Shown in pieces: positions 27,854-45,942 of a DNA stretch of 64,000 bases (positions are counted from its first letter, which is position 1; each line of letters opens with the position of its first letter). The notes beneath the pieces were generated by a model. It was given only the letters and a program-made list of their open reading frames with translations, was not told where the DNA came from and did no database searches. Made by a program: the position numbers and the translations under genes. The DNA lies in the NCBI RefSeq assembly GCF_900156335.1, contig NZ_FTMZ01000002.1:248001-312000 (forward strand), given 5' to 3'. Origin of the DNA: Sphaerotilus natans (GTDB taxonomy: Bacteria; Pseudomonadota; Gammaproteobacteria; Burkholderiales; Burkholderiaceae_C).

Positions 27854-29827
27854 TCACGCCGGCACGCCGACCAGCACCGACAGCGCCGTCATGAAGCGCT
27901 CCAGGCGCGCACCGCCGAGGAAGGCCTCGGCCTGGGCGCCGTCGATCAGCCCGACAAAATGCTCGCGCGAGGCCTCGTCGTCCTGCGCCCGGACCAGGCG
28001 CTCCTCCAGCGTGTCGCTGGCCACCAGATGGCAGACCGGCACCTGGCGGACCCGGTCGGCACGGTGCACGCGGCTGAAACGCTGCGCCAGCAGCGCCGGA
28101 TTCCAGGGCCGGTCCAGATGCAGGATCGCGGTGGCGGCATGGCGCAGGCCGAGCTGGCCGCCGGGGCTGTCGTCGCAGCACAGCAGCACCCGCTGCTGCG
28201 GATCCTGCTGGAAGGCGCTGACCAGCGCACGGCGCGCCTCGCCGCCGACATCGACCGGCAGGGCCAGGTGCGCGATGCCACGCTCGGTCAGCGCCGCCGA
28301 CAGCGCCTCCAGGCTGTCGACCCACTGGCTGAAGACCACCACGCGCATGTCCGGCTCGGCCAGCAGCGTCTCGAGGCCCTCGATCGTGGTGCCGATCTTG
28401 CCGGCATTGCAGCCCAGGCGCAGCGCATGCAGCGTCGAGAGCAGGCGGCGCTGGTCGGCATCGGACAGATAGCGGCTGCGCTGCCAGCGCTGCACCGCAC
28501 GGACGATCTGCGCCAGGCGGGCGTCATGCAGCGGCCGCTCGGCCGCATCGAGCTCGACCGGGCAGATCGCCTCGACCGTCTCGGGCAGCTGGCGCAGCAC
28601 CAGGGTCTTGGTGCGGCGCAGCAGCCACGGACCCAGCGCCTCGAGGCGCTCGGCCACCGGCGCCTCGGCCAGAGCCTCGAGGCGGCCGATCGCGCCCAGG
28701 CACGACGCGTCGACCCATTCCAGCATCGCGCGCAGCGCACGCGGACGCACCTCGACCGGCGTGCGGGCCACGGACAGCGCAAACGGGCCGTCCAGAGTCG
28801 CCAGCGCCGCCGCGAAGTCGGTGTCCAGCCAGGGGCTGAGATTGGCGTCGTCGCTCTCGTCGACGACCACGCTGTCGGGCGCGAAGGCCTGGAGCGCGGC
28901 CAGCGTGTCGGCCTGCACCGCCAGCGCGGCCTCGGCCAGCAGCAGCAGCGGTGCCTGCGGCGAGGCCTCGGCCTGCGCCGCCGCGGTGATGTCCGTCACC
29001 GAGCCCGCCTGCAGCGCGCTCAGGCCGGTCAGGGCCTGCCACTGCTCGGCCCAGTGCGCCAGGCGCTCGGCCGGGGCCAGCACCAGCGCGCGCTCGGCGC
29101 CGAACTGGGCCGCCAGCAGGCGCAGCGCGGCCACCGCCTGCACCGTGCGTCCCAGGCCGGCGTCATCGGCCAGCACGCTGCGGCCCGCGCAGGCGGCGTA
29201 GAGCGCGCCCTCACCTTGGTAAGTGCGCAGCGGCAGCGTGACCAGCGCGGTCAGCAGCGGGCTGGCGGGGCCTTCCGGCATGCGGGTCTCGAGCAGATGG
29301 ACGCGCTCGCGCATGTCGCGCGCCGGGGCCAGCCACAGCCAGACCGCCTCGTCGACACGCAGCGCATGGCGGCGCTCGCGGGCGATGCGCACCATCTCCA
29401 GCAGCGCCAGGTCATTGACCAGCGGAGCGGCAGCCGTGGGCTGATCCAGCTGCGCGGCCAGCGCCAGCAGCTCGGCCGGGCAGTCGCGGCCCGGGGTCCA
29501 GGCCAGACGACGCACCGGGCCCAGCGCCTCGAGCGCGACCTGGCTGAAAGGCGGCGCCAGCGGCTGAGGCTCCGGCTCCGGCTCGGGCTGAGGCTCAGGT
29601 TCTGGCGCCAGCTCGGGCTGCGGCATCGGATCGCCGAGGTTATCCACAGCTTGTCCACAGGCGTTATCCACAGCCTGCGTCAGTGCATCGGGACCTTCAT
29701 CTGCAGTTGCGGTCGTGCCCACGTCCACGGGGGTGTCCACCGCCACGACCTCGGCCGGTTCGGCCACCGGTTCGGCGACAGGCTCGACGATGGCTTCAGC
29801 AGCGGGCTCGGCAGCCACTTCGACCAC
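27854..29827 (-). CDS. SNF2-like helicase-fold protein (main part; 5' end frameshifted)
   Basis: A 657-residue frame with an acidic Pro/Glu-rich N-terminus (1-95) followed by a SWI2/SNF2-type ATPase fold. Motif I is LADDAGLGRTVQA, where the usual Walker A Lys is Arg (R227); motif II is VVVDESDD instead of DEAH; the second lobe keeps RVVVFSQW and QRFSRVHRADRVRQ (motif VI). ATP use is therefore doubtful. The GTG at 29827 is only where this frame opens; the real start is probably at 30399 in another frame (next entry). Three DnaA boxes lie in the linker codons at 29640-29672. Confidence 0.7.
   Translation of the reverse strand: MVEVAAEPAAEAIVEPVAEPVAEPAEVVAVDTPVDVGTTATADEGPDALTQAVDNACGQAVDNLGDPMPQPELAPEPEPQPEPEPEPQPLAPPFSQVALEALGPVRRLAWTPGRDCPAELLALAAQLDQPTAAAPLVNDLALLEMVRIARERRHALRVDEAVWLWLAPARDMRERVHLLETRMPEGPASPLLTALVTLPLRTYQGEGALYAACAGRSVLADDAGLGRTVQAVAALRLLAAQFGAERALVLAPAERLAHWAEQWQALTGLSALQAGSVTDITAAAQAEASPQAPLLLLAEAALAVQADTLAALQAFAPDSVVVDESDDANLSPWLDTDFAAALATLDGPFALSVARTPVEVRPRALRAMLEWVDASCLGAIGRLEALAEAPVAERLEALGPWLLRRTKTLVLRQLPETVEAICPVELDAAERPLHDARLAQIVRAVQRWQRSRYLSDADQRRLLSTLHALRLGCNAGKIGTTIEGLETLLAEPDMRVVVFSQWVDSLEALSAALTERGIAHLALPVDVGGEARRALVSAFQQDPQQRVLLCCDDSPGGQLGLRHAATAILHLDRPWNPALLAQRFSRVHRADRVRQVPVCHLVASDTLEERLVRAQDDEASREHFVGLIDGAQAEAFLGGARLERFMTALSVLVGVPA
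29640..29672 (+). repeat. Cluster of three DnaA boxes
   Basis: TTATCCACA (29640-29648), TTGTCCACA (29651-29659) and TTATCCACA (29664-29672), all in one direction. The first and third are perfect consensus DnaA boxes. They lie inside coding sequence for a low-complexity linker (QAVDN-ACG-QAVDN). Confidence 0.7.
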
Positions 29828-33343: not shown

Positions 33344-34582
33344 ATGGATGCAAGGGACCTGATGCGCGGCAGTGTGTCGCAGACCCGGAATCACCCGATC
33401 GGCACCGGCCCGCCCCGGCGTGAGGAGGCCTCTCCCGGCCGGCCGCGTCTCGGCGCGAGATCCGGACCTGGCCTGGCCGCTGCGCTGCTGCTGTGCGCGG
33501 GCCTGCTGCCCGGCGCTGCCCACGCTGCATCGCTGCTGCAGCCCCCTCCCCCCTGTCCCGTCGCCATCCCGGCGCATCCGCCCGCCACCGCGCAGGTGTG
33601 GCGCGTCAGCGACTTTGGCGCCATTCCCGACGACGATCTGGCCGATGACGAGGCACTGCGTCGCGCGCAGGCCACGTTGCGTCCCGGCGACTGGCTGGTG
33701 TTTGAGCCCGGCCTCTACCTGCAGGCGCACAGCGTGACGATCGACCGGCCCGGCCTGACGCTGTGGGGCCCGGGCGCGACGCTGCAGGCGCTCGATCCGG
33801 CCGACCATGCGCTGCGGCTGCAGGCCGACGGCGTGCGGCTGGCCGGACTGACGCTGCGCGCGCGCACCGACCGGCGCCGCGACGCGCCGGCGCAGTCGCG
33901 GCTGGTGCTGCAGGGCGCCGGCCAGGTGGTGCAGCAGGTGCGCATCGAGGGCGCCGGCGCGGCCGGCATCCTGGTGCTCGGCGCGCGCGGCTTCCTGCTG
34001 GCCGACAACCGGATCCGCGCCACGCTGGCCGACGGCATTCATGTCAGCGGCGGCAGCCGGCAAGGCCGCATCGAGAACAACCAGGTGAACGATGCCGGCG
34101 ACGACCTGATCGCGGTGGTGTCCTACGACAGCGATCCCGCGCCGGTGCAGGACATCCTGGTGCGCGACAACCAGGTCGCGGGCGGGCGCTGGGGGCGCGG
34201 GCTGGCGGTGGTCGGCGGCGAGCGCATCACGCTGGCGAACAACCGCATCAGCGACGTGCTGCGCGCCGCCGGCATCCTGGTGGCGCAGGAGGGCCCGTGG
34301 CGCACCCGGGGCGTCGATCAGGTGCGCATCGAGCGCAACCGGCTGATGCGCATCGGCCGGCCTCAGGATGCGGCGCAGGCCGCCGGTGCGCCGACCGGCC
34401 ATGCGGCGATCGAGGTGCATCGCCACGAGACGCCGCCCGGCGCGGCCGGCATCGGCCGGCTGCACCTCGAGGACAATCGGGTCGAGGACAGCGGCGTGCC
34501 GGCGCTGCGGCTGCGCGACGGCCGCCTCGATGCCGGCGCCAGCGGCGCGCGGCTCGACTGCCCGGCCCTCAGTACGCGTTGA
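33344..34582 (+). CDS. Exported right-handed parallel beta-helix protein
   Basis: A 412-residue protein. An unusually long Arg-rich start is followed by a hydrophobic export segment (about 44-62, ending AHAASLL). The rest is a pectate-lyase-like beta-helix: VWRVSDFGAIPDDD, then repeated turns such as GFLLADNRIRATLADGIHVSG, RIENNQVNDAGDDLIAVVSY and LANNRISDVLRAAGILV. Such proteins cut or epimerise polysaccharides; in an exopolysaccharide locus it may be a lyase or a tailoring enzyme. The true start may be the ATG at 33362. The 3' end overlaps the convergent fusion gene by 14 bases. Confidence 0.72.
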   Translation: MDARDLMRGSVSQTRNHPIGTGPPRREEASPGRPRLGARSGPGLAAALLLCAGLLPGAAHAASLLQPPPPCPVAIPAHPPATAQVWRVSDFGAIPDDDLADDEALRRAQATLRPGDWLVFEPGLYLQAHSVTIDRPGLTLWGPGATLQALDPADHALRLQADGVRLAGLTLRARTDRRRDAPAQSRLVLQGAGQVVQQVRIEGAGAAGILVLGARGFLLADNRIRATLADGIHVSGGSRQGRIENNQVNDAGDDLIAVVSYDSDPAPVQDILVRDNQVAGGRWGRGLAVVGGERITLANNRISDVLRAAGILVAQEGPWRTRGVDQVRIERNRLMRIGRPQDAAQAAGAPTGHAAIEVHRHETPPGAAGIGRLHLEDNRVEDSGVPALRLRDGRLDAGASGARLDCPALSTR

Positions 34583-36788
34583 GCACCACGCCGGCGATGT
34601 CGGCGCGGGTGCGGCGCAGCCGCTCGACCAGCAGATTCATCGCCCGGGCATCGGTGCGGCCGTTGCGCCCGACCAGCACCGCCTGGCCGCAGGTCGCGGC
34701 GATGACACGCGCGTCGGCGCTGTCACGCGCCGGCGGGGTGTCGACGATGACGCGGTCGAACTCGCGCTGCAGCTCGCGCAGCAGCACCGCGAACAGCGGC
34801 TGCTGCAGCAGCTCGAGCGGATTGGGCGGCGGCGCGCCCACCTGCATGACGAACAGCCCCGGCAGTTCGGCCGAACGGTCGAAGGGCCGGGCGGGACGGC
34901 GGCCGTTGAGCAGGTCCGCCAGGCTGGCGCGCTCCTTCAGGCCGAAGACGCGGTGCAGCGCCGGTGCGCGCAGATTGCCGTCGACCAGCACGGTGCGCTC
35001 GCCGAGCTGGCTGAAGGTGATGGCCAGATTGGCCGCGACATGGGTGCGGCCGTCGCCCCGGTCCGGACTGAGCACCGCCAGCGGCACCCGCGGACCGGCC
35101 AGGATGCGGCTGCGCAGCTCGCGAAAGGCCTCGGCCTGGGCACCGTGCGGATCGGTGGCCACCACCAGCCCGCCGGCGCCGAAGCGGCTCAGGTCCAGCG
35201 CGCACGGATAGTTGAACTGCATCGACAGCGCCCGCAGCACGTCGGCCTGGCTGGCCAGATCGAGCGCGACCGCCGCCTCGCCGAAGCGCAGTCCCATGCG
35301 CCGCTGCACCACCAGGATGTGGGCGATGTCGCCATCGGACAGCGGCCGCAGCGTGCGCAGCAGCTCGCCGATCGGCCGGGCCGGATGCGCCGACACCACC
35401 GCCGTGGTCGGTGCAGGCTGCGGCGGCAGCGCCATCGGGTCGGGCCGCGGCTGCCAGGCGGCCAGCACCGCCGGCACGATGTCGGGCTCGGCCGGTGCCG
35501 GCGGCATCGACACGGGGGCGGCGGTGCTGGCGGCGGCGACGGTGGCAGGAGAGGCAGAAGCGTCAGGCATCGGGATCAGGCTCAGGTCGGGGCGGGAGAT
35601 CGCGCGCGCGACGGGCTCCGGTGCGGTCGCCGCTGCGGGCTCGCCGTGAAAGGCGGCCCAGGCGCGCTCGACCTCGGCGGCGAAGCGCTCGCGGAAGCGC
35701 TCCGGCGCAAAGTCCTCGGCATGGCGGCGGCAGGTCTCGGGCGCGATCGGCGCGGGCAGCGCCTCGAAGGCCTCGACCGCGGCGATCAGCGCCTCGGGCG
35801 TCTGCGCGTCGAAGAACACGCCGGTGCGCTGCGCCGGGTCGCCGCGGCCGCGCACCGTCTCCAGCGAGCCGCCGCGGCCGTAGGCGATCACCGGCGTGCC
35901 GCAGGCCTGGGCCTCGACCGGGGTGATGCCGAAGTCCTCCTCGGCGGCGAAGACGAAGGCGCGGGCGCGCTGCATGTGGTCGACCAGCGTGGCGTCGTCC
36001 TGGAAGCCCAGCACCGTCACGTTCGGACCGGCGGTGGCGCGCACCTTGTCCATGTCGGGGCCGTCGCCGATGACCACCAGCCGGCGCTGCGGCATGCGCG
36101 CGAAGGCCTCGACGATCATCGGCATGCGCTTGTACGGCACCATGCGCGAGGCGGTCAGGTAGAAGTCCTCCTTGTCGGCGCGCAGCGCGAAGCGCGCCAC
36201 GTCCACCGGCGGATGCACCACGCCGGCCTCGCGCCGGTAGACCTTGCGCACCCGCCGGCCGATGAAGGCCGAGTTGGCGACGAAGCGGTCGACGCCGGCG
36301 GCGGTGCGGCTGTCCCACAGCCGCATGTAGTGCAGCATCGCGCGGGCGAAGGCGCCCTTCAGGCCGCTGTCCATGCCGGACTCGCGCAGGTACTGGTGCT
36401 GCATGTCCCAGGCGTAGCGGATCGGCGAATGGATGTAGCAGACATGGAGCTGGTCCGGCCCGGTCAGCACGCCCTTGGCCACCGCGTGGCTCGACGAGAC
36501 GATCAGGTCGTAGCCCGACAGGTCGTGCTGCTCGACCGCCAGCGGCATCAGCGGCAGGTAGTGGCGAAAGCGCTTGCGCGCGCCCGGCAGGCGCTGGATG
36601 AAGGTGGTGCGCGCGACCCGGCCGCCCAGGAAGCCGCGCTCGCCGGGGCCGAGAAAGTCGACCACCGCATACAGGTCGGCCTGCGGGTAGATCTGCAGCA
36701 GCTGCTCGACCACCTTCTCGCTGCCGGCATGGTTGACCAGCCATTCGTGGACGATGGCGACGCGCTCGGGGCGGGACGGGGAGAACAT
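34569..36788 (-). CDS. GT4 glycosyltransferase fused to an EpsG-like tyrosine-kinase-type ATPase domain
   Basis: A 739-residue two-enzyme fusion. Residues 8-385 are a GT-B glycosyltransferase of family 4: VAIVHEWLVNHAGSEKV, the donor-site EX7E motif in EEDFGITPVEA (E284...E292). A Pro/Ala-rich linker runs 386-470. Residues 471-540 are the EpsG N-terminal module (GELLRTLRPLSDGDIAHIL). Residues 565-739 are the BY-kinase-type ATPase: Walker A SPDRGDGRTH has Arg (R581) for Lys, Walker A' is LVDGNLR (N605 for the second Asp), Walker B IVDTPPA is intact. The chain ends in NAY with no tyrosine cluster. It may be a glycosyltransferase with an inactive regulatory domain. Last gene of the operon. Confidence 0.85.
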   Translation of the reverse strand: MFSPSRPERVAIVHEWLVNHAGSEKVVEQLLQIYPQADLYAVVDFLGPGERGFLGGRVARTTFIQRLPGARKRFRHYLPLMPLAVEQHDLSGYDLIVSSSHAVAKGVLTGPDQLHVCYIHSPIRYAWDMQHQYLRESGMDSGLKGAFARAMLHYMRLWDSRTAAGVDRFVANSAFIGRRVRKVYRREAGVVHPPVDVARFALRADKEDFYLTASRMVPYKRMPMIVEAFARMPQRRLVVIGDGPDMDKVRATAGPNVTVLGFQDDATLVDHMQRARAFVFAAEEDFGITPVEAQACGTPVIAYGRGGSLETVRGRGDPAQRTGVFFDAQTPEALIAAVEAFEALPAPIAPETCRRHAEDFAPERFRERFAAEVERAWAAFHGEPAAATAPEPVARAISRPDLSLIPMPDASASPATVAAASTAAPVSMPPAPAEPDIVPAVLAAWQPRPDPMALPPQPAPTTAVVSAHPARPIGELLRTLRPLSDGDIAHILVVQRRMGLRFGEAAVALDLASQADVLRALSMQFNYPCALDLSRFGAGGLVVATDPHGAQAEAFRELRSRILAGPRVPLAVLSPDRGDGRTHVAANLAITFSQLGERTVLVDGNLRAPALHRVFGLKERASLADLLNGRRPARPFDRSAELPGLFVMQVGAPPPNPLELLQQPLFAVLLRELQREFDRVIVDTPPARDSADARVIAATCGQAVLVGRNGRTDARAMNLLVERLRRTRADIAGVVLNAY

Positions 36789-36798
36789 CGAAGATCCC

Positions 36799-37866
36799 TC
36801 AGGCGAAATGCAGGTCCATCAGGTCGGCGAACTCGCGCGCGGCCCGGTCCCAGGTGAAGCCGGCGGCACGCTGGCGGCCGGCCTGGCGCAGCTCGGCCGC
36901 CAGCGCGTCGGAGTCCAGCAGCCGGCGCAGCTGCGCCGCCAGCGTGGCCGGATCGTCCGGGTCGCAGTAGAGCGCGGCGTCGCCGCAGACCTCGGGCAGC
37001 GAGGCGCGGTCGGAGGAGATCACCGGGCAGCCGCAGCACATCGCTTCCAGCGGCGGCAGGCCGAAGCCCTCGTAGAACGAGGGAAAGACGAAGCAGGCCG
37101 CGCCCTCGTAGAGCGCGCGCAGCTGCTGGTCGCTGACATAGCCGGTGCGCTGCAGCCGGCGGTCGTCCAGGTCCAGGCCGCCGGCCTGCGCGAAGATGCG
37201 CGCGTTGCCGCCGCCGGCGGCCACCAGCACGATGCCGGGATCGTCCAGCAGCGCCATCGCCTTCAGCACCGCGGCGAAGTTCTTGTTGTGCGACAGGCTG
37301 CCGACGGCCAGCACATAGCGCCGGCCCTGCAGGTCCAGGCGCTCGAACACGGTCGGATCGGCGGGCAGGCGCAGGATGTGCTCGCCGCCCTCGGGCAGCA
37401 CCTCGATGTCGAGAAAGGGCCGACCGAAATGGCGCACCAGCTCGTCGGCGCTGAAGCGCGACACCGTGGTGACCACCCGCGCGCGGTGCATCACCGAGTC
37501 CAGCATGACCCGGTACCAGTGGCGGAAGGCGAAGCCGTAGTTGCGCGGATTGGCCACCGCCGCCGCGTCGTGGATCACCACCATCTGGCGCTGGTGGCGC
37601 CAGGGCGCGGTGTTGCACAGATTGACCAGCGGCTCGTCGCCGGCCAGCGCCGGCAGCTCGGTCTGCTCCCAGCGGTGGCCCTGATGGCGGCCGGCGCGCG
37701 CCAGCGCCAGGCCCGGCGGCAGCGGCGTGACCAGCCGGGCATCCTGCGGCACGATCGCACGCGCCTGCGGCAGCAGGCCCAGCCGCGTGCCCGCGCCCAG
37801 CAGCTCGATGGCGAAGCGGTCCACGCCGGTGGCGGGGCGGGTCAGGAAACGGGCGTTGATCAGCAT
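36799..37866 (-). CDS. Glycosyltransferase family 4
   Basis: A 355-residue GT-B enzyme that adds a sugar to the lipid-linked repeat unit. The N-terminus MLINARFLTRPATGVDRFA is a typical acceptor domain start; the donor half has GSLSHNKNF, then FVFPSFYEGFGLPPLEAMCCG with the EX7E motif, and DRASLPEVCG. It overlaps the upstream GT2 gene by seven bases and is followed after ten bases by the fusion gene. Confidence 0.9.
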   Translation of the reverse strand: MLINARFLTRPATGVDRFAIELLGAGTRLGLLPQARAIVPQDARLVTPLPPGLALARAGRHQGHRWEQTELPALAGDEPLVNLCNTAPWRHQRQMVVIHDAAAVANPRNYGFAFRHWYRVMLDSVMHRARVVTTVSRFSADELVRHFGRPFLDIEVLPEGGEHILRLPADPTVFERLDLQGRRYVLAVGSLSHNKNFAAVLKAMALLDDPGIVLVAAGGGNARIFAQAGGLDLDDRRLQRTGYVSDQQLRALYEGAACFVFPSFYEGFGLPPLEAMCCGCPVISSDRASLPEVCGDAALYCDPDDPATLAAQLRRLLDSDALAAELRQAGRQRAAGFTWDRAAREFADLMDLHFA

Positions 37867-38885
37867 GTCGGTGTTTCCCGGCCGCTCAGGCGGCGATGCT
37901 GGCGGGCCAGCCGGCCCGCCAAAGCGCGCGGCAGCAGCAGCACGCCGGCCATCCAGCCCAGCATCAGCAGACGCTCGCCCAGGCGCAGATCGGGCCAGCG
38001 CAGCACCGCCCGCAGCGCACGGCCGGCCGTGCGTGCGCGCGGCAGCGCCGGATCGGCGGGGCCCAGGCGCAGGCCCATGACCAGGGTGCGCGCCTCCCAG
38101 GGCGCCAGCGCCAGCTCGCGCCGGCGCGGGATCACCAGATGGTCCAGCGCAGCAGCCAGCGCCTGCTTGCCCTGCAGGACACGCCGGCAGGCCTCCCGCA
38201 GCGCGCCGTGGCGGGCCGAGGGCAACCAGTCGTCCGGCCCGGCGCCGCGGTAGGCACCCAGCGGCTGGGGCAGCGAACGCACCACGCCACAGGCCGGCGC
38301 CAGCAGGATCGGCACGGTATCGGCGCCGGCCTGCCAGGGCGACTCGTCCAGCGGCAGCACCCGCGCCAGGAAGTCGCGGTGGAAGACATTGCCCGAGCAT
38401 GGCGGCGAGCCATAGGCGCCGAACTCGCGCAGCAGCGCCAGCGCCTGTGCACCCTCGTGCAGCCGGCGCGGCAGCTGGCGGCCCAGCGGCCGGTCATCCG
38501 CATCGACCAGATCGAGGCGAAACTGCAGCTTGCTCACGCCCGGCGCCCAGGCGGCCAGCACCTGCGCGGCCGCCTGCGGATAGAGCCAGTCCTCCGACTC
38601 CAGGAAGAGCAGCAGCTCGCCGCGGGCGGCGGCGAAGCCGGCGTTGATGGCCGCGGCCTGACCCACCCCGCCGAGCGCGATGCAGCGCAGCTGCGGCGCC
38701 ATGCGCCGGATCACGCCGAGCGAACCATCGCGCGAGCCGTCGTCGACGACGATGACCTCGACCGCCCCGGGCTGCTCGCGCGCGAGGGTCTGCGCGCAGG
38801 CCGACTCGATCGCATGCGCGACGAAGCGCTCGCGCTGGCGGTTCAGCACGACGATGCTCAGGCGCGGTCGCTGCAGCATGTTCAT
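37860..38885 (-). CDS. Glycosyltransferase family 2
   Basis: A 341-residue GT-A enzyme. The N-terminal domain shows LSIVVLNRQRERFVAHAIES, VIVVDDGSRDGS (nucleotide-binding Asp pair), and LLLFLESEDWLYP in place of the usual DxD. A C-terminal hydrophobic part (LGWMAGVLLLPRALAG) may touch the membrane. Start at 38885 overlaps the polymerase stop (ATGA). Its product is part of the repeat unit; the sugar is unknown. Confidence 0.88.
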   Translation of the reverse strand: MNMLQRPRLSIVVLNRQRERFVAHAIESACAQTLAREQPGAVEVIVVDDGSRDGSLGVIRRMAPQLRCIALGGVGQAAAINAGFAAARGELLLFLESEDWLYPQAAAQVLAAWAPGVSKLQFRLDLVDADDRPLGRQLPRRLHEGAQALALLREFGAYGSPPCSGNVFHRDFLARVLPLDESPWQAGADTVPILLAPACGVVRSLPQPLGAYRGAGPDDWLPSARHGALREACRRVLQGKQALAAALDHLVIPRRRELALAPWEARTLVMGLRLGPADPALPRARTAGRALRAVLRWPDLRLGERLLMLGWMAGVLLLPRALAGRLARQHRRLSGRETPTC

Positions 38886-40192
38886 GGCTGGCGGCCTTCC
38901 GGCGTGGACGTGGAGGCTGACGCGGGCGTGGGGACCAGCACCCGCGCCAGCAGCAGCGCCAGCACGATGCCGCAGGTCCAGGTGAAGGCGCGCGCGGTGC
39001 CCAGATAGGGATAGCGGTACATCTCCATGAAGCTGATGAAGAAGATCGGATAGAGCAGCACCCCGGCCAACCGGCCCTCGCGGTAGGCACGGAAGGCCAT
39101 GCCGCTGAGCAGGCCGACCGCGCACATGTAGACCACCGCGCCGGTCAGGCCGAGGTCCGACACCACCGCGTACAGGCCGGAGGGGCTGTTGAACTCCGGG
39201 TCCTGGTAGGTGAACAGGTGCTGCTCGAAGGTGCGCCCGGCATAGCCGGTCAGCGTCGAGAAGGGCTGGCCGAGGCCGAGCGGCGCGCGGTGCAGCCACT
39301 CGAGCGTGAACTCGAAGGTCCAGGTCGGCCAGGCGGAGTTCGCCAGCAGGCTCGCGCCATTGTTCAGCGAGGTGTAGTAGTAGCTGGCGAAGCGCCCGAG
39401 CGCGAACTCCCAGAAGTCCAGCCGGCCCTGGTAGGTGTCGGACGCCCAGGAGCGCGCGTACTCGGCCGCACCGAAGTAGAGGATCACCAGCGGAATGGCC
39501 GCGAACGGCCCGGCCACCCGCAGCAGCGTGCCGGCCGCGCCCGGGCGCGCCGCTGCCCAGCGGCCCACCGCCAGGCCCAACGGCACCAGCGACTCGATCA
39601 GCGCCAGCCGCTCCGACCAGACATAGACGCGGAAGGCGGTCAGCAGCGCCAGCACGATCGCCAGCCCATGCAGCGCGCGCGGCAGCGGCAGCGCAGGGCC
39701 CTGGCCCGCCGCCCCCGGATCGAGCCGGCGGAACAGGTAGAGCGAGAAGAACACCGGCGTGACATTGGCCAGCGAGGTCAGCCCCGGCGTCAGCTCGATG
39801 CTGTCGCGCTCGGGCTTGTAGGCCCCGCTGAGGATCGCCCACAGCAGCGCCGGGTCGAGCAGGAAATCCCGGAACCAGACCGAGAAGGCCAGCACCGCCA
39901 CCAGGCCGATGGCCAGCGCGGCGCGGTCCGCGCCGACGCCCAGCGGGCGCGGCGCGCCGGCACGCGGCTGCAGCTGCGCGCCCAGCGCGCCGCCCAGCGC
40001 CAGCGCCGCCAGCAGCAGGCCGCCGAGCATCAGCCAGCCCAGGTCGAGCACCTGCACGCCGCGGATCGTCAGCGCCGGATGGCGCACCTCGCCGGCCCAG
40101 GCGATCAGGAACATCAGCGGCAGCAGGAAGCCGCAGGCGATGCCCGCCGGCGAGCTCCACCACGGCATCGAGGCGGTGCGGGCTGCCCTCAT
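38882..40192 (-). CDS. O-antigen/exopolysaccharide polymerase-like membrane protein (Wzy type)
   Basis: A 436-residue inner-membrane protein with ten or more helices and one large periplasmic loop (about 260-330, rich in Tyr: YARSWASDTYQGRLDFWE, FASYYYTSLNNGASLL). Wzy proteins have little sequence conservation; the call rests on topology, the loop, and the position between flippase and glycosyltransferases. It would join repeat units in the periplasm. It overlaps both neighbours by four bases (ATGA). Confidence 0.75.
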   Translation of the reverse strand: MRAARTASMPWWSSPAGIACGFLLPLMFLIAWAGEVRHPALTIRGVQVLDLGWLMLGGLLLAALALGGALGAQLQPRAGAPRPLGVGADRAALAIGLVAVLAFSVWFRDFLLDPALLWAILSGAYKPERDSIELTPGLTSLANVTPVFFSLYLFRRLDPGAAGQGPALPLPRALHGLAIVLALLTAFRVYVWSERLALIESLVPLGLAVGRWAAARPGAAGTLLRVAGPFAAIPLVILYFGAAEYARSWASDTYQGRLDFWEFALGRFASYYYTSLNNGASLLANSAWPTWTFEFTLEWLHRAPLGLGQPFSTLTGYAGRTFEQHLFTYQDPEFNSPSGLYAVVSDLGLTGAVVYMCAVGLLSGMAFRAYREGRLAGVLLYPIFFISFMEMYRYPYLGTARAFTWTCGIVLALLLARVLVPTPASASTSTPEGRQP

Positions 40193-41427
40193 CGCGCCCG
40201 CCCCGGCCGGCAGCACGCCAGCACCGCGCCCGACAGCAGCAGCACCAGCAGATCGGCGCCCAGCAGGGCCCAGCCGTAGGCGCTTCGCCCCACCCACTGT
40301 GGCAGCAGCGCCAGCAGCGCGCAGAACAGCAGCGTCGCGGCGGTCTGCACCAGCGCGTAGTGACGCTCCAGCCCGAAGGCGATCAGCGACTGCTGACCGA
40401 ACAGCGCCGCCACCGCCTGCAGCGGCACGCTCAGCGCCAGCAGCAGCACCAGCGCCACCGCCAGCGGCTCCTCGCGGTGAAATACATAGCCGACGATGTG
40501 CGGCGCAGCCAGCATCGCCAGCGCGCCCACCGTCAGGCCGATGGCCAGCATCGCCGCCAGCAGGCGCCGGCCGAAGCGCAGCGCCTCGTCCGGCGCGCTG
40601 GCCGCCAGCCGCGCAAAGCGCACGAAGCCGAACTGCTGCAGCGGCAGCTGCACCGCCTGCCCGGCCATGCGCACCCGCAGCGCCAGGCTGGCCGCGCCGA
40701 CGGTGGCGGCGTCCGCCTGCAGGCCCAGCAGCGCGATGCCGCCATTGGTCAGCATCGCGCCGTTGACATTGCCCGAGACGATGGCCGAGGCGCCGCGCAG
40801 CAGCTGCCCGATGCGATCGGCCTCCAGGCCGGCGCGGCGCGCCAGCCCCCGGCGCAGCAGCAGGAACCAGGTCAGCGCGCTGGTGGCCAGCGACACCAGC
40901 GCGTAGACCGCCAGCGCGCGCTCCATCGTCGCCAGGCGCGGCACCAGCGCCAGCAGCAGCGCGATGCCCAGCAGCCGCACGCCGGTGGTGACCAGCAGCA
41001 GCAGCCGGGTCTGCTCGAGGGCACGGGCATACCAGCCGGCATCCAGCGCGAAGCCGATCAGATAGGCCAGCGAGGCCAGCATCAGCGCCTCCTCGCCGGG
41101 CGGGCGCAGCAGCAGCAGCAGCGCGCCGCAGCCGCTGGCCACCGTCGCGCACAGCAGCAGCTTGGCGGCGGTGATGTTCCACAGCGTGCGGTGCGCATGG
41201 TCGGCATCGTCGCGACGGCGCGCGACCTCGCGGGTGCCGTACCAGTCGAAGCCGAACTCGATGATCATGCCCAGGAAGCCCCCCAGCGCCGCGTAGAAGG
41301 ACACCACGCCGTAGTCGTGCATGCCCAGCGTGCGCCCGCACACCACCGCGAACACCAGCGGAAAGGCGAAGGTGGCGATCTGGGTCAGCGTCAGCTCGAG
41401 CAGCTGCAGGCGCACCGGCACAGGCAC
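40189..41427 (-). CDS. Polysaccharide flippase (Wzx/MATE-like)
   Basis: A 412-residue membrane protein with about 12 helices, of the oligosaccharide flippase superfamily (FAFPLVFAVVCGRTLGMHDYG at the start, then IIEFGFDWYGTREVAR). It moves lipid-linked repeat units across the inner membrane. The start is a GTG at 41427, two bases after the epsG stop, with GGGGA as ribosome site; no ATG fits. Its stop overlaps the polymerase start. Confidence 0.82.
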   Translation of the reverse strand: MPVPVRLQLLELTLTQIATFAFPLVFAVVCGRTLGMHDYGVVSFYAALGGFLGMIIEFGFDWYGTREVARRRDDADHAHRTLWNITAAKLLLCATVASGCGALLLLLRPPGEEALMLASLAYLIGFALDAGWYARALEQTRLLLLVTTGVRLLGIALLLALVPRLATMERALAVYALVSLATSALTWFLLLRRGLARRAGLEADRIGQLLRGASAIVSGNVNGAMLTNGGIALLGLQADAATVGAASLALRVRMAGQAVQLPLQQFGFVRFARLAASAPDEALRFGRRLLAAMLAIGLTVGALAMLAAPHIVGYVFHREEPLAVALVLLLALSVPLQAVAALFGQQSLIAFGLERHYALVQTAATLLFCALLALLPQWVGRSAYGWALLGADLLVLLLSGAVLACCRPGRAR

Positions 41428-41429
41428 CG

Positions 41430-42374
41430 TCAGTCCCCGCGCATCACCACGCCGGCCAGGTCGACCGACTCGCGTCGCAGCGACTCGACCAGCGCGCCCA
41501 GCTCGGCGGCACGGGCGTGATGGCGCCGCGCCAGCACCAGCGCCTCGCCGCAGGCCGCAGCGATCACCCGGGCGTCGGCGCCATCGGTCGCGGCCGGGGT
41601 GTCGACGATGACCCGATCGAAGCGGGTCGCCAGATTGCGCAGCAGCGCGGCGAAGCGGCCGCGCTCGAGCAGCTCGAGCGGATTGGGCGGCGGCGCGCCG
41701 ACCGGCAGCAGCGCCAGGCAGGGCAGCACGTCGATGCGCTGCGGCTCGGGCTGCCGCGCCGGGTCGGCCAGCAGCACGCTCAGCCCGGGCCGGTCCGGCC
41801 GGTCGGCCAGGCCGAACAGCCGGTGCAGCCGCGGCGCACGCAGGTCGGCATCGACCAGCACCGTGCGCTCGCCCAGCTGGCTGAAGGCGGCCGCCAGGTT
41901 GGCGGCGGCGTGGCTGCGGCCATCGCCCCGGCGCGGACTGACGATCGCCAGCACCCGGCCGGGCGGATGCGCACGGGCCGACCCCGGCCCCGGCCCCGGC
42001 ATCGGCGCCGGCACCCGCAGCATCAGCTGCGCGCGCAGGTCGCGCCACAGCTCGGCGGCCGGTCCGTGCGGATCGGCGGCAACGCTCAGCTCGGCCAGAT
42101 GGGGATGCGCCGCCACATCGACACAGGCATAGCCGAACTGGCGCGCCAGCGCCTGCTGCAGCTGGGCGGGCTGCACCAGCCCGAGCTGCAGCGCCGCCTC
42201 GCCGAAGCGCAGCTCGCGCTCGGCCTGCAGCGCGACGATGCGGGCGATGTCGGCGTCGCCCAGCGGGCAGACGTCGCGCAGCAGCTCGCCCAATGGCCGC
42301 TCGCCCGGCGGCACCGCCACCTGCAGCAGCTGATCATGTCCGTCGCGCGGGCTCATCGGCCGACCTGCCGTCAT
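41430..42374 (-). CDS. epsG: EpsG-like chain-length tyrosine-kinase-type ATPase
   Basis: A 314-residue cytoplasmic partner of EpsF. N-terminal EpsG module at 27-85 (LGELLRDVCPLGDADIARIV), then the ATPase domain from about 135. Walker A SPRRGDGRSH has R153 where BY-kinases have Lys; Walker A' VLVDADLR (D175, D177) is intact; Walker B is IVDTPAA (A261 for the usual second Pro). There is no C-terminal tyrosine cluster; only one Tyr is present. BY-kinases normally control polymer length by phosphorylation cycling; whether this one phosphorylates is uncertain. It overlaps epsF by four bases. Confidence 0.85.
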   Translation of the reverse strand: MTAGRPMSPRDGHDQLLQVAVPPGERPLGELLRDVCPLGDADIARIVALQAERELRFGEAALQLGLVQPAQLQQALARQFGYACVDVAAHPHLAELSVAADPHGPAAELWRDLRAQLMLRVPAPMPGPGPGSARAHPPGRVLAIVSPRRGDGRSHAAANLAAAFSQLGERTVLVDADLRAPRLHRLFGLADRPDRPGLSVLLADPARQPEPQRIDVLPCLALLPVGAPPPNPLELLERGRFAALLRNLATRFDRVIVDTPAATDGADARVIAAACGEALVLARRHHARAAELGALVESLRRESVDLAGVVMRGD

Positions 42375-43792
42375 GTCCGGCCGGCCCGGCCCGGGCCGCG
42401 CAAGGCCGGAAAGGCCGCCACCGGCGTGCGGGCGCCTGGGCGCGACGACGGGATCTCGACCAGCAGCGGCAGACCCAGCAGCTCGGGCACATCGTCGGCG
42501 CAGCGCAGCCGGCGGTCGCGCAGCTCGGCCAGCAGCGTCGCGCCCAGCGCCAGCACGCTGCCCAGCACCGCTGCGATGCCCAGGTTCACGCCCAGCAGCG
42601 GCGAGGAGGCCTGCGCCGGTGCGGTGGCCTGCTTCAGCACCGAGACATTGCTCAGGCGCGCCTGGCGCTCGGTGCCGCTCTGGGTGGCGCGGCCGGCCAC
42701 CGCGTCATAGGCCTGCTGGGCGTTCTGCACGTCGCGCAGCAGCACGCGGGCCTCGTCGCGGCGGGTGGTCAGCTCCAGCACCCGGGCTCGCTGCTCGTCC
42801 AGCGCGGCCTTCGCCTGCGCCAGGCGCTGCTGGTTGACGTTGTCGCTCAGGCCCAGGCTGGAGGCGACGCGGCGCGACTCGGTGGCGAGCTGCCGGCGCA
42901 GCCGCTCGACGGTGGCGCGCTGCTCGAGCATCTGCGGATGCTGCTCGCCCAGCCGGGCGCCCATTTCGTCGAGCCGCGCCTCCTGGCGCGCCAGATCAGC
43001 CGACAGACCGGCGACCACCGGATGCGCCAGCACCTCCGGCGCCCGGTCCGGGCTGGCCGCGGCCTGCGCCCGGCGGCTGCCGGACTCGCCGGCCTGCGCT
43101 TGCAGCGCCACCAGCTGGCTGGAGAGCTCCGACAGGCGCGCGGTCTCGATGTCGACCCGCTCGTCGCTGCCGACCGCCAGCAGGCCATGCTCGCGCTGGA
43201 AGGCCGACAGGCGCTGCTGCGCTTCCTCCAGCGCGGCACGCAGCTGGCGCGCACGCGCGTCGAAGAAGTCGCTGCTGCCGCGCGCCGGATCGAGCCGCAG
43301 CGCCAGGCTGGTGTCGACGAAGGCCTGCACGAAGGCATTGGCAAGGCGCGCCGCCTCCTCGCGGCTCTCGGCGGTGTAGGCGATCGAGATCACGCCGGAT
43401 TCCTTGGCCGGGCGCACCTCCAAGCGCTTGCGCATCGCGGTGGCCAGCCAGGCCTCGAAGTCGCCGACGCCGCCGGTCTCGTCCTGCCACTTCGCCCGCG
43501 CCGGGCCGTCCGCGCGGCCCAGGCCGGTGGCGGCGATGACCGCCCGCGCCACCCGCTCGCTCTGGATCAGGTCGACCTGCATCGCCATGTAGGTGCTGGC
43601 CTGCGGCGGCTGGGCATCGCCCGGCGCCACCGGATCGGCCGCCCGGGCGTCGACCAGCACCATCGCCGTCGCGGTGTAGCGGGTGGGCAGCAGCAGGCTG
43701 ACCGCGAGGGTCAGCCCGAGCACGGCCAGCAGGACCGCCAGCGCAAGGCGCCAGCGCGCACGCAGGGCCATCAGGAAACGGGCAAGCGACAT
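42371..43792 (-). CDS. epsF: Chain-length determinant protein EpsF (Wzz/PCP type)
   Basis: A 473-residue inner-membrane protein. First helix about 13-35, periplasmic coiled-coil (about 170-390, e.g. ALEEAQQRLSAFQREHGLLA), and second helix near 405-425 followed by a short Pro/Arg-rich cytoplasmic tail. It sets polymer length together with the EpsG ATPase. First gene of the leftward operon; only a weak ribosome site precedes the ATG. Confidence 0.88.
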   Translation of the reverse strand: MSLARFLMALRARWRLALAVLLAVLGLTLAVSLLLPTRYTATAMVLVDARAADPVAPGDAQPPQASTYMAMQVDLIQSERVARAVIAATGLGRADGPARAKWQDETGGVGDFEAWLATAMRKRLEVRPAKESGVISIAYTAESREEAARLANAFVQAFVDTSLALRLDPARGSSDFFDARARQLRAALEEAQQRLSAFQREHGLLAVGSDERVDIETARLSELSSQLVALQAQAGESGSRRAQAAASPDRAPEVLAHPVVAGLSADLARQEARLDEMGARLGEQHPQMLEQRATVERLRRQLATESRRVASSLGLSDNVNQQRLAQAKAALDEQRARVLELTTRRDEARVLLRDVQNAQQAYDAVAGRATQSGTERQARLSNVSVLKQATAPAQASSPLLGVNLGIAAVLGSVLALGATLLAELRDRRLRCADDVPELLGLPLLVEIPSSRPGARTPVAAFPALRGPGRAGRT

Positions 43793-44128: not shown

Positions 44129-44845
44129 ATGAAATCGAAACAGTCGGCAGGCCCGCGCTCGGACCGGACGCTGCAGGAATTTGTCGGTGGCGCCTGCCGC
44201 TTCAGGCGCCGCAACCAGGCGCGATCGGGCAGCCGGCTGGCCCGGCTGCAGCTCCGGCTCGACCAGTTCGCCGCACTGCTGCTGCTGCTGCTGTTCGCGC
44301 CGCTGATGGCGGTGATCGCGCTGCTGGTGTGGCGCCGCGACGGCGCGCCGGTGCTGTTCGGCCACTACCGCATCGGCCAGCACGGCCGACCCTTCCGCTG
44401 CCTGAAGTTCCGCAGCATGTACCTCGACTCGGAGGCGATGCTGCGCGAGCTGCTCGAGCGTGACCCGGCCGCGCGTGCCGAATGGGAGCGCGACCACAAG
44501 CTGACCGACGATCCGCGCATCACCCCGATCGGCCATTTCCTGCGCCGCACCAGCCTCGACGAGCTGCCGCAGCTCTTCAACGTGCTGCGCGGCGAAATGA
44601 GCCTGGTGGGCCCTCGCCCGATCACGCTGGCCGAGCTGCCGCGCTACGGCCAGGTGCGCTGGCACTATCTGAGCGTGCGCCCGGGCATGACCGGCCTGTG
44701 GCAGGTCAGCGGCCGCAACGACACCACCTACGACGAGCGCGTCGAGCTTGACCGCGAGTTCGTCGAGCAGCACAGCCTGAAGCTGCGGATCAGCATCCTG
44801 CTGCGCACGCTGCGGGTGGTCATCCGGGGCAGCGGCGCCCGATGA
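44129..44845 (+). CDS. epsB: Undecaprenyl-phosphate sugar phosphotransferase (EpsB-like)
   Basis: A 238-residue initiating transferase that puts the first sugar-phosphate on undecaprenyl phosphate. It lacks the N-terminal four-helix region of WbaP-type enzymes and has one membrane re-entrant helix (about 45-68) and the catalytic core: LKFRSMYLDSE, DPRITPIGHFLRRTSLDELPQ (split here at 20), NVLRGEMSLVGPRP, RPGMTGLWQVSGRN. It overlaps the next gene by four bases. Confidence 0.9.
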   Translation: MKSKQSAGPRSDRTLQEFVGGACRFRRRNQARSGSRLARLQLRLDQFAALLLLLLFAPLMAVIALLVWRRDGAPVLFGHYRIGQHGRPFRCLKFRSMYLDSEAMLRELLERDPAARAEWERDHKLTDDPRITPIGHFLRRTSLDELPQLFNVLRGEMSLVGPRPITLAELPRYGQVRWHYLSVRPGMTGLWQVSGRNDTTYDERVELDREFVEQHSLKLRISILLRTLRVVIRGSGAR

Positions 44846-45942
44846 GCACCGTCCTGCATCTGGTGACCCGGCTGCGGCCGGGCGGCCACGGCGGCACGCT
44901 GTGGCCCACGCTGATGGCGCTGGCCGACGGCCAGCTGATGCAGCAGGTGCTGCCGCTGGCGGCCGGTGCCGGCGCGCTGCAGGCGGCACGGCTGCTGAGC
45001 CCGGAGTCGGTGCAGCTGCTGCCGGTGCCCGCGATCCGGGCGGTGGCCACCGCGCTGCGACGCGTGCTCGACGCGCCGGCGCCGCCGCAGGCCCTGCACC
45101 TGCACGGCCTGCCGGCGCTGCTGAGCGCGCGCCATGTGCTGCAGGGCCGACCCCGGGCCCCCATGCCGCTGTTCCTGCACCAGTGCAGCCGGGTGCTGGC
45201 CCAGAGGCTGCTGCAGGGCATGCCGGAGCGCAGCGTCTTTCTCGTCGGCCCGGACCGGGTCGATCCGCTGGCCGCAGCCCCGCTGCCCGGCGCGGTCGAT
45301 GCGGCCTTCTTCAGTCAGCCGCTCATCGCGGACACCGTCCCGCGCATCGTGACCGCGGCCACCGGCGATCCACAGGCCGACGAGGAGATCGCGCAGGCCT
45401 TCGCCGAGCTGGCGGTCATGCTGTCGGGCATTCAGGCCGCACGCCAGCCGGCCTTCGCCTGGATCGGCCCGGTCCCCGGACCGGTGCGCGCGCTGCTGCT
45501 GGCCGCGCAGGTGAAGCTGCAGGAAATCGCGCTGGCGCAAGCGCCGGCACGCGCCCGGGCGCTGGCCCAGGCCTGGATCTATCTGGCGCCGGATGTGGCC
45601 GGCCGCGGCGCGGACCGGCTGGCCGAGGCGATGGCGGTCGGGCTGGCCTGCGTGGCCGCGCCGGCACCGGCCTACCGGCTGCAGATCATCGATGCGCTGT
45701 CAGGCGAGCTGCACGCGCGCCGCGCCGATCTGCTTCAGGCGCTGGCCCGGCTGCTCGAGTCGGATGCGCTGCGTCTGGCGATGGGCCGTGCGGCGCGGCT
45801 GAGGGCGCGCCATCAGCACGGTCATCACCGCTTCCGCGCCTCGCTGCTGCTGGCGCACGGGCTGTCACCGCTGCCGGTGCTGCGCCACGAGGCCGGCCAT
45901 GCGACCCCGGCGGTGCCCGGCGCGCCCGCGTCGCCGGGCTGA
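44842..45942 (+). CDS. Glycosyltransferase-like protein
   Basis: A 366-residue protein that starts like a GT4 enzyme (STVLHLVTRLRPGGHGGTLW) and has a second half with a GT-B-like donor domain (WIYLAPDVAGRGADRLAEAMAVGLA), where the EX7E motif is not clear. It may be a diverged glycosyltransferase or a partner of EpsB. Start overlaps the epsB stop (ATGA), so the two are coupled. It converges on the chemoreceptor gene. Confidence 0.65.
   Translation: MSTVLHLVTRLRPGGHGGTLWPTLMALADGQLMQQVLPLAAGAGALQAARLLSPESVQLLPVPAIRAVATALRRVLDAPAPPQALHLHGLPALLSARHVLQGRPRAPMPLFLHQCSRVLAQRLLQGMPERSVFLVGPDRVDPLAAAPLPGAVDAAFFSQPLIADTVPRIVTAATGDPQADEEIAQAFAELAVMLSGIQAARQPAFAWIGPVPGPVRALLLAAQVKLQEIALAQAPARARALAQAWIYLAPDVAGRGADRLAEAMAVGLACVAAPAPAYRLQIIDALSGELHARRADLLQALARLLESDALRLAMGRAARLRARHQHGHHRFRASLLLAHGLSPLPVLRHEAGHATPAVPGAPASPG

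Follow-up and report, generated by a model that had tools for sequence, protein, structure and literature searches.

The window analysed here is a 64,000-nucleotide stretch of the Sphaerotilus natans genome (assembly GCF_900156335.1, contig NZ_FTMZ01000002.1, positions 248,001 to 312,000). It contains a minus-strand gene encoding a glycosyltransferase (GT) of family GT4 fused to an ATPase domain resembling EpsG, the stand-alone ATPase of bipartite polysaccharide co-polymerases. The open reading frame (ORF) extends exactly from position 34569 to 36788, starts with ATG and comprises 739 residues. The initial annotation had described this product as a GT4 enzyme with intact EX7E motif, a Pro/Ala linker and an EpsG-type ATPase, a description borne out by the ORF, the profile matches, the motif and the per-residue model confidence (predicted local distance difference test, pLDDT). 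The gene and its parts are as follows (BYK, bacterial tyrosine kinase; c-di-GMP, cyclic di-GMP):

34569-36788, minus strand: fused gene, 739 residues, in the order GT4, linker, MshEN-like domain and EpsG-type (BYK-fold) ATPase
35640-36788, minus strand: GT4 domain, residues 1-383, WbaZ-like (PF00534/PF13439, PDB 2f9f, model and EX7E)
35385-35639, minus strand: Pro/Ala-rich linker, residues 384-468 by pLDDT, predicted disordered (pLDDT, lengths, composition and substitution rates)
35217-35375, minus strand: MshEN-like 24+5+24 repeat, residues 472-524, with a degenerate c-di-GMP-type motif (NF053729, EpsG profile and motif table)
34569-35201, minus strand: BYK-fold ATPase domain, residues 530-739, with GDGRT as Walker A, DGNLR as Walker A', VIVDTPP as Walker B and an ExxRxxR motif, without Tyr cluster (profile, model and motifs)

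The GT4 half scored 83.5 bits against PF00534 (cut-off 26.4), with the best stretch at residues 203-348, and its EX7E motif is intact (E284-x7-E292). WbaZ-1 (PDB 2f9f) was the closest solved GT by sequence (8.2e-16), and the predicted model, mostly confident, has two lobes and matches GT4 structures. The domain probably adds one sugar to a lipid-linked repeat unit in the cytoplasm. Throughout the linker (residues 384-468), pLDDT was below 50. The EpsG half (residues 471-739) aligned with the EpsG profile TIGR03029 nearly over its full length (positions 5-273 of 274) at 221.5 bits, short of the curated 313.8-bit cut-off, and is thus EpsG-like, not a certified EpsG. Note that a match above this cut-off was found in 5 of 100 genomes of the family. 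GT4 rows and kinase rows were aligned separately. Because the kinase was covered by only 6 rows, the full-length model was poor in this region, and we used a model of the half instead (mean pLDDT 89.5, confident BYK fold). Its top PDB matches in Foldseek were CapAB and Wzc (E-values down to 5.6e-17). By profile and model, the EpsG-like half is predicted to consist of an MshEN-like helical domain and a BYK-fold ATPase.

Conservation and origin of the fusion

The G+C content of the window is 71.6%, at which open frames are common. An open frame alone would therefore be weak evidence for a fused protein, and it is conservation that carries the argument. Both halves occur in one stop-free frame in 6 of the 13 genomes of the genus: that of the window (G000), G006, G007, G008, G011 and G012. 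The genomes without fusion are G001, G002, G003, G004, G005, G009 and G010 (G007 is 83% and G010 68% complete). The linkers of the six proteins measure 89, 93, 102, 136, 73 and 116 residues, every one in frame. Over the 15 pairs of fused genes, the ratio of nonsynonymous to synonymous substitution rates (dN/dS) lay at 0.05-0.33 in the GT4 part, 0.02-0.41 in the kinase and 0-0.5 in the MshEN-like part. The linker, at 0.22-0.98, exceeded all other parts in 15 of 15 pairs (Nei-Gojobori method, own script; the linker values are rough, the alignments being loose at 26-80% identity). The GT4 and kinase halves are thus both under purifying selection.

We also considered an internal translation start that would yield a separate EpsG. 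Within the 45 codons preceding the EpsG half, no start codon place was common to all six genomes; a GTG at -30 is common to three, and another at -2 to the other three. No Shine-Dalgarno-like sequence at the usual spacing was seen by eye for the starts in this interval; in G012 a GGAG directly abuts the GTG at -30, a spacing that is too short. An internal start in this interval is therefore unsupported.

In the comparison with G012 (locus L109), synonymous divergence was low at positions 35634-37866, with values of 0.051 for the GT4 half and 0.128 for GT4b, the GT4 gene directly upstream. Twelve other genes or gene parts, among them the kinase half at 0.228, showed 0.18-0.49. No such drop was observed in the comparison with G006 (GT4 half 0.418, GT4b 0.469). 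This pattern points to a recombined tract with one end in or near the linker, the GT module having been exchanged separately from the kinase.

The initial annotation had held that these two functions are normally encoded by separate genes and had proposed a search for the same architecture in other genomes. In agreement with the former statement, frames with both halves came solely from the six genus genomes among 187 loci, compared with 147 frames holding the GT4 alone and 117 holding the kinase alone. Whole-protein searches covering 100 + 200 family, 120 order and 150 phylum genomes and 120 genomes of relatives yielded GT4-only matches (frames checked) and no further fusion outside the genus. 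In these overlapping sets, which are a sample rather than a census, the best 5-10 candidates per genome were scored at a threshold of 1e-120 (1e-90 for the 120 relatives). With so few candidates scored and such strict thresholds, strongly diverged fusions could be missed. Searches from the EpsG side revealed no in-frame GT4 except the window's own, either at 30 loci from 100 family genomes (39 matching) or at 12 loci from 143 class genomes (9 matching). A scan of contigs from named genomes, which may omit near relatives, found 0 of 80 fused among the best 80 of 586 relatives, ranked by the GT4 half. Unfused GT4s stop 0-36 residues past the domain in 15 of 16 and 7 of 7 frames, the exception being locus L152.

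That locus (L152:1501-3885, genome G229) encodes a different fusion at the same protein end, in which a Pro-rich linker connects a GT4 of this kind with a second one. Elsewhere, an 881-residue frame (L168:1177-3819, minus strand) may be an EpsF-EpsG fusion: its EpsG-like part is preceded by a stretch which by eye resembles the membrane end at the C-terminus of a co-polymerase. In G055 and G514 (L114, L182 and L007), the genes for an unfused GT4 and an EpsG adjoin tail-to-tail and are thus neighbours there in another orientation; the G055 GT4 is identical to that of L007, a contig of a metagenome-assembled genome (MAG). The GT4 domain of G524 (same family) is likewise identical to that of a Rubrivivax MAG (L008). 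G012 has a second cluster (L110, G012:C11:1-19000) with a second, unfused GT4 of this kind and a sugar transferase; the nearest relative of this GT4 in the tree is from Malikia.

Two genomes without the fusion, G004 and G009, bear on its origin. There, GT4b is directly followed by an unfused EpsG homologue (63% identical), at the position that the fused gene occupies in the others, and no epsG is present between epsF and wzx. In a kinase tree (quick method; support from the Shimodaira-Hasegawa-like approximate likelihood ratio test, SH-aLRT, only), the six fused domains form one clade (99), which is sister to these unfused homologues (96). The next sister group comprises the separate EpsGs of the fusion genomes (99; five rows, that of G011 being left out). 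The fused domains again group as a single clade (100) in the GT4 tree, where their nearest neighbours are unfused GT4s from other genera. The trees for both halves thus fit one origin. The simplest reading of these sequences would be a duplication of EpsG in the genus, followed by one fusion of the second copy to the GT4.

The operon and the EpsG-like half

The neighbouring genes are as follows:

42371-43792, minus strand: EpsF, polysaccharide co-polymerase without kinase domain (TIGR03017 435.8 bits, cut-off 422.75; PF02706; two transmembrane segments by hydropathy)
41430-42374, minus strand: separate, unfused EpsG-like protein of 314 residues, paralogue of the fused half (TIGR03029 229 bits, below cut-off; tree)
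40189-41415, minus strand: Wzx-type flippase (PF01943 64.8 bits; no NCBIfam match)
38882-40192, minus strand: polytopic protein, probable Wzy-type polymerase (TIGR04370 1.6e-4 and 20.8 bits, below the cut-off of 40; seven hydropathy segments; no Pfam match)
37860-38885, minus strand: GT2 glycosyltransferase (PF00535 65.7 bits)
36799-37866, minus strand: GT4b glycosyltransferase, directly upstream of the fused gene (10 nucleotides from its stop to the fused start codon)
44129-44845, plus strand: WbaP-type initiating phosphoglycosyl transferase, divergent (PF02397 204.6 bits; TIGR03022 307.4 bits, below the cut-off of 403)
44842-45942, plus strand: further glycosyltransferase, weak GT group-1 match (PF00534 22.6 bits, below the cut-off of 26.4)
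33344-34582, plus strand: right-handed beta-helix protein, convergent, overlapping the 3' end of the fused gene by 14 nucleotides (PF13229 56.3 bits)

By its gene content, this is an exopolysaccharide operon of the predicted Wzx/Wzy type, with the minus-strand order epsF, separate epsG, Wzx flippase, Wzy-like polytopic protein, GT2, GT4b and, last, the fused gene. The GT4b-GT4 pair also occurs at the unfused loci L107, L114, L115, L184 and L185. A homologue of the beta-helix protein, possibly an enzyme acting on the polymer, adjoins the fusion in 5 of 5 other fusion genomes (the G008 copy is cut by the contig end). The genome of the window lacks a second good copy of the fused GT4 (the next best match is 9.4e-5, over residues 210-302) but has two more EpsGs besides the fused half. 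A further minus-strand frame of the window (27854-29827) has a start rich in Ala, Glu, Pro and Val.

The initial annotation mentions neither the second, unfused EpsG of the operon (41430-42374) nor the MshEN-like subdomain with which the EpsG half begins. Since the operon has a separate EpsG, the fused half is its paralogue rather than the only chain-length kinase; we rejected the latter role because the separate EpsG adjoins epsF.

With respect to the nucleotide site, the position of the Walker A Lys is occupied by Arg in all six fused proteins; the 36 other aligned EpsGs have Arg (12), Lys (22) or Met (2). The second Asp of Walker A' is Asn in all six and in 9 of the 36. As Arg and Asn are also present at these places in unfused EpsGs, we rejected the notion that activity was lost specifically in the fusion through the Walker changes. 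Of the remaining Asp residues, the first of Walker A' and that of Walker B are retained in 6 of 6. The Gly of the DGN sequence is nearly fusion-specific (6 of 6 fused proteins versus 1 of the 36). No C-terminal Tyr cluster was present: the last 30 residues contain at most one Tyr in each of the six fused rows, and likewise in the eight displayed of the 36 other EpsG rows, some of them end-cut. The ExxRxxR motif, which we take to be the ring interface of BYK proteins, is present in all six fused proteins. The initial annotation had called this half an EpsG-like kinase domain. The first part of that label holds, given the near full-length TIGR03029 match and the BYK fold, and the second is doubtful, given the Walker A Arg and the missing Tyr tail. 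Based on these two features, a docking or ATP-switch domain appears likelier than a proven kinase.

The MshEN-like tandem spans 53 residues, two 24-residue motifs with a 5-residue spacer, to be compared with the MshEN c-di-GMP motif as defined in PMC5013675 (this and the papers below are cited for the excerpts available). A profile of 42 EpsG rows matched the MshEN structure 5htl at 5.4e-7, and the NCBIfam c-di-GMP motif NF053729 scored 23 bits for the fused protein, below its cut-off of 38. All six fused proteins retain Gly3 and Gln24 in the two motifs and lack Gly10 in both. Among the 40 rows with the 24+5+24 frame (of 49 tabulated, several start-cut), none has Arg1 of motif I at its place; in the fused proteins an Arg sits one residue before that place. 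No MshEN chain was among the 50 Foldseek rows listed for the half model. The same degenerate domain is found in unfused EpsGs without a GT, indicating that it predates the fusion. An MshEN-like N-terminal domain appears general to the EpsG rows, its spacing, Gly3 and Gln24 being conserved, and the window has copies at 35217-35375 and 42138-42296. Four loci from other genera (L116, L118, L120 and L122) keep Gly10 in both motifs and look nearer to the binding consensus.

Possible roles of the fused protein

We propose, as the best of the readings considered, that the spare EpsG became a tether holding the GT4 at the EpsF/Wzx/Wzy assembly, a reading that we regard as evenly poised between right and wrong. 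On this proposal, the GT4 domain would complete the lipid-linked repeat unit by one sugar on the cytoplasmic side, and the EpsG-like half would dock on the cytoplasmic side of the co-polymerase EpsF, either by itself or in rings mixed with the separate EpsG, via the conserved ExxRxxR surface. The flexible linker may then allow several GT4 domains to work around the Wzx/Wzy/EpsF assembly, and the tether would keep repeat-unit completion beside export and polymerisation. The ATPase half would serve as a nucleotide-controlled dock and not as a classical tyrosine kinase.

Points in favour of the tether are the single frame in 6 of 13 genus genomes, a linker that varies in length but not in frame and is less constrained than both domains, the lack of an internal start place common to all six genomes in the interval covered, the missing second good copy of the GT4 in its genome, the single clade in each of the two trees, the true EpsF without kinase domain, the BYK fold and the ExxRxxR motif. 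There are also precedents. The co-polymerase PssP2 and the glycosyltransferase PssC interact in a two-hybrid assay (PMC4182512), and PssJ-PssP2 and PssJ-PssT are single positive pairs considered uncertain by their authors (PMC7589315). The BY pseudokinase EcpK has been proposed as a scaffold of the kinase-less co-polymerase EpsV (PMC12004946).

Several points weigh against the tether and its history. The separate EpsG could do all the docking on EpsF, in which case the fused half would be idle. ATP binding by this half is uncertain, with Arg in place of Lys in Walker A. Seven of the 13 genus genomes and the sampled outside genera do without the fusion, and an rpoB tree (11 genomes with a match) groups its five fusion carriers on one side of a branch, weakly (56/88). 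Rings and mixed rings are assumed by analogy with the BYK family. Anatomy and conservation are observed directly, and the proposed tether and its workings are modelled on known systems.

The initial annotation had also suggested that the fusion would tie a repeat-unit GT to the chain-length machinery. The fusion is indeed intact, conserved and located in an operon with a true EpsF; this operon also has the separate EpsG, of which the fused copy is a paralogue. A coupling of sugar addition to chain length would be a further step. In its strongest form, which we consider a rather improbable extension of the tether, a ring under EpsF, built from the fused protein with or without the separate EpsG, would carry a crown of GT4 domains on flexible arms, and one switch (the ATP state, perhaps a second messenger on the MshEN-like domain) would release or hold the polymerase complex and the transferase together, thus setting both sugar addition and chain length.

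Alternatively, neighbouring operon genes may simply have been joined, with both halves working as before, uncoupled, and the linker a mere spacer. The unfused EpsG homologue after GT4b in G004 and G009, the fast evolution of the linker and the GT4-GT4 fusion in G229 (L152), in which such a GT4 has another partner, are all consistent with such a passive event. However, both halves have remained constrained and in frame in six species despite the second EpsG of the operon, the availability of which should make loss of the fused EpsG half easy. We consider a passive fusion to be on the unlikely side.

Could the EpsG half instead regulate its attached GT, by phosphorylation or through its ATP state? 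In Staphylococcus aureus, CapA1B1 phosphorylates CapM and increases lipid I-cap synthesis 4-fold (PMC6441080), and the Walker B Asp and first Walker A' Asp are retained in all six fused proteins. But CapM is a priming transferase and no GT4, and the Arg in Walker A, the Asn for the second Walker A' Asp and the missing Tyr cluster speak against catalysis of this kind. Such a regulatory module seems unlikely to us.

A c-di-GMP switch, with the MshEN-like domain binding the second messenger and gating the linked GT4, would be functionally similar to NfrB, in which a GT and an MshEN domain operate under c-di-GMP control (PMC8669469). The 24+5+24 spacing, the conserved Gly3 and Gln24 and the profile match to 5htl would fit this idea. 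On the other hand, motif I Arg1 is missing from its place and Gly10 from both motifs, NF053729 scored below its cut-off, no MshEN chain was among the 50 Foldseek rows listed, and the occurrence of the degenerate domain in EpsGs lacking a GT means that it did not arise for the fusion. We consider such a switch equally unlikely.

Post-translational cutting within the linker, releasing separate GT4 and EpsG proteins, would be favoured by its length and predicted disorder, but the linker is little conserved (26-80% pairwise identity; no search was aimed at cleavage sites); we consider this very improbable. An assembly error or pseudogene joining two genes, which the initial annotation had named as a possible refutation, is rejected with near certainty, as the same join is present in five other independent assemblies of the genus (in G006 within a 4.8 Mb contig) and both halves are under purifying selection.

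Support for a physical attachment of repeat-unit glycosyltransferases to the Wzx/Wzy/co-polymerase machine comes, in the papers cited here, from two-hybrid contacts such as PssP2-PssC. Because nature has joined a GT4 covalently to the ATPase of a co-polymerase and conserved the link, the fusion offers a clean way to test such an attachment. The fusion is real, conserved and testable, and in the sampled genomes is confined to part of one genus, where a duplicate of EpsG was apparently recruited as a tether. Its analysis also brings the MshEN-like domain of EpsG proteins to attention.

Comparison with known systems

No GT fused to a BYK or EpsG was described in the titles and abstract openings listed by searches of open-access literature (subscription papers being outside this scope) or in the available excerpts of PMC11340318 and PMC4195743. 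EpsG, GT4, MshEN and BYK are each known, and it is their combination that appears to be new.

The closest known system is EpsG/EpsF (TIGR03029 and TIGR03017), a bipartite co-polymerase with a stand-alone BYK-like ATPase. As in that system, the fused half matches nearly the full EpsG model and a true EpsF is encoded in the operon. The fused half differs in scoring below the EpsG cut-off, in being joined to a GT4 and in being a second copy beside a normal epsG. With the BY pseudokinases EcpK and HfsB, scaffolds of kinase-less class 2 polysaccharide co-polymerases (PCP-2), it shares the kinase-less co-polymerase partner, the lack of a C-terminal Tyr cluster and the proposed docking (PMC12004946). 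Unlike EcpK, which in the excerpt available has no Walker motifs, the fused protein keeps these motifs largely, and whereas EcpK and HfsB are described there as stand-alone proteins, the EpsG half is joined to a GT4.

In NfrB, too, one chain carries a glycosyltransferase and, after it, an MshEN-type domain (PMC8669469). However, as described in the part of that paper available, NfrB combines a GT2 with a fully conserved MshEN motif, whereas in the fused protein the GT is a GT4, the motif is degenerate and an ATPase domain is added. Wzc and CapAB have the BYK fold in common with the fused half, both by sequence and in Foldseek, but possess the Tyr cluster and the Walker A Lys that are absent from the fused protein. 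Moreover, the kinase of Wzc is fused to the co-polymerase, while the ATPase described here is fused to a glycosyltransferase. The GT4 half, finally, belongs with the WbaZ-like GT4s, as indicated by the match to PDB 2f9f, and is 50-72% identical to the 48 unfused GT4 rows of the alignment, which stem from Proteobacteria, Bacillota and one Thermodesulfobacteriota.

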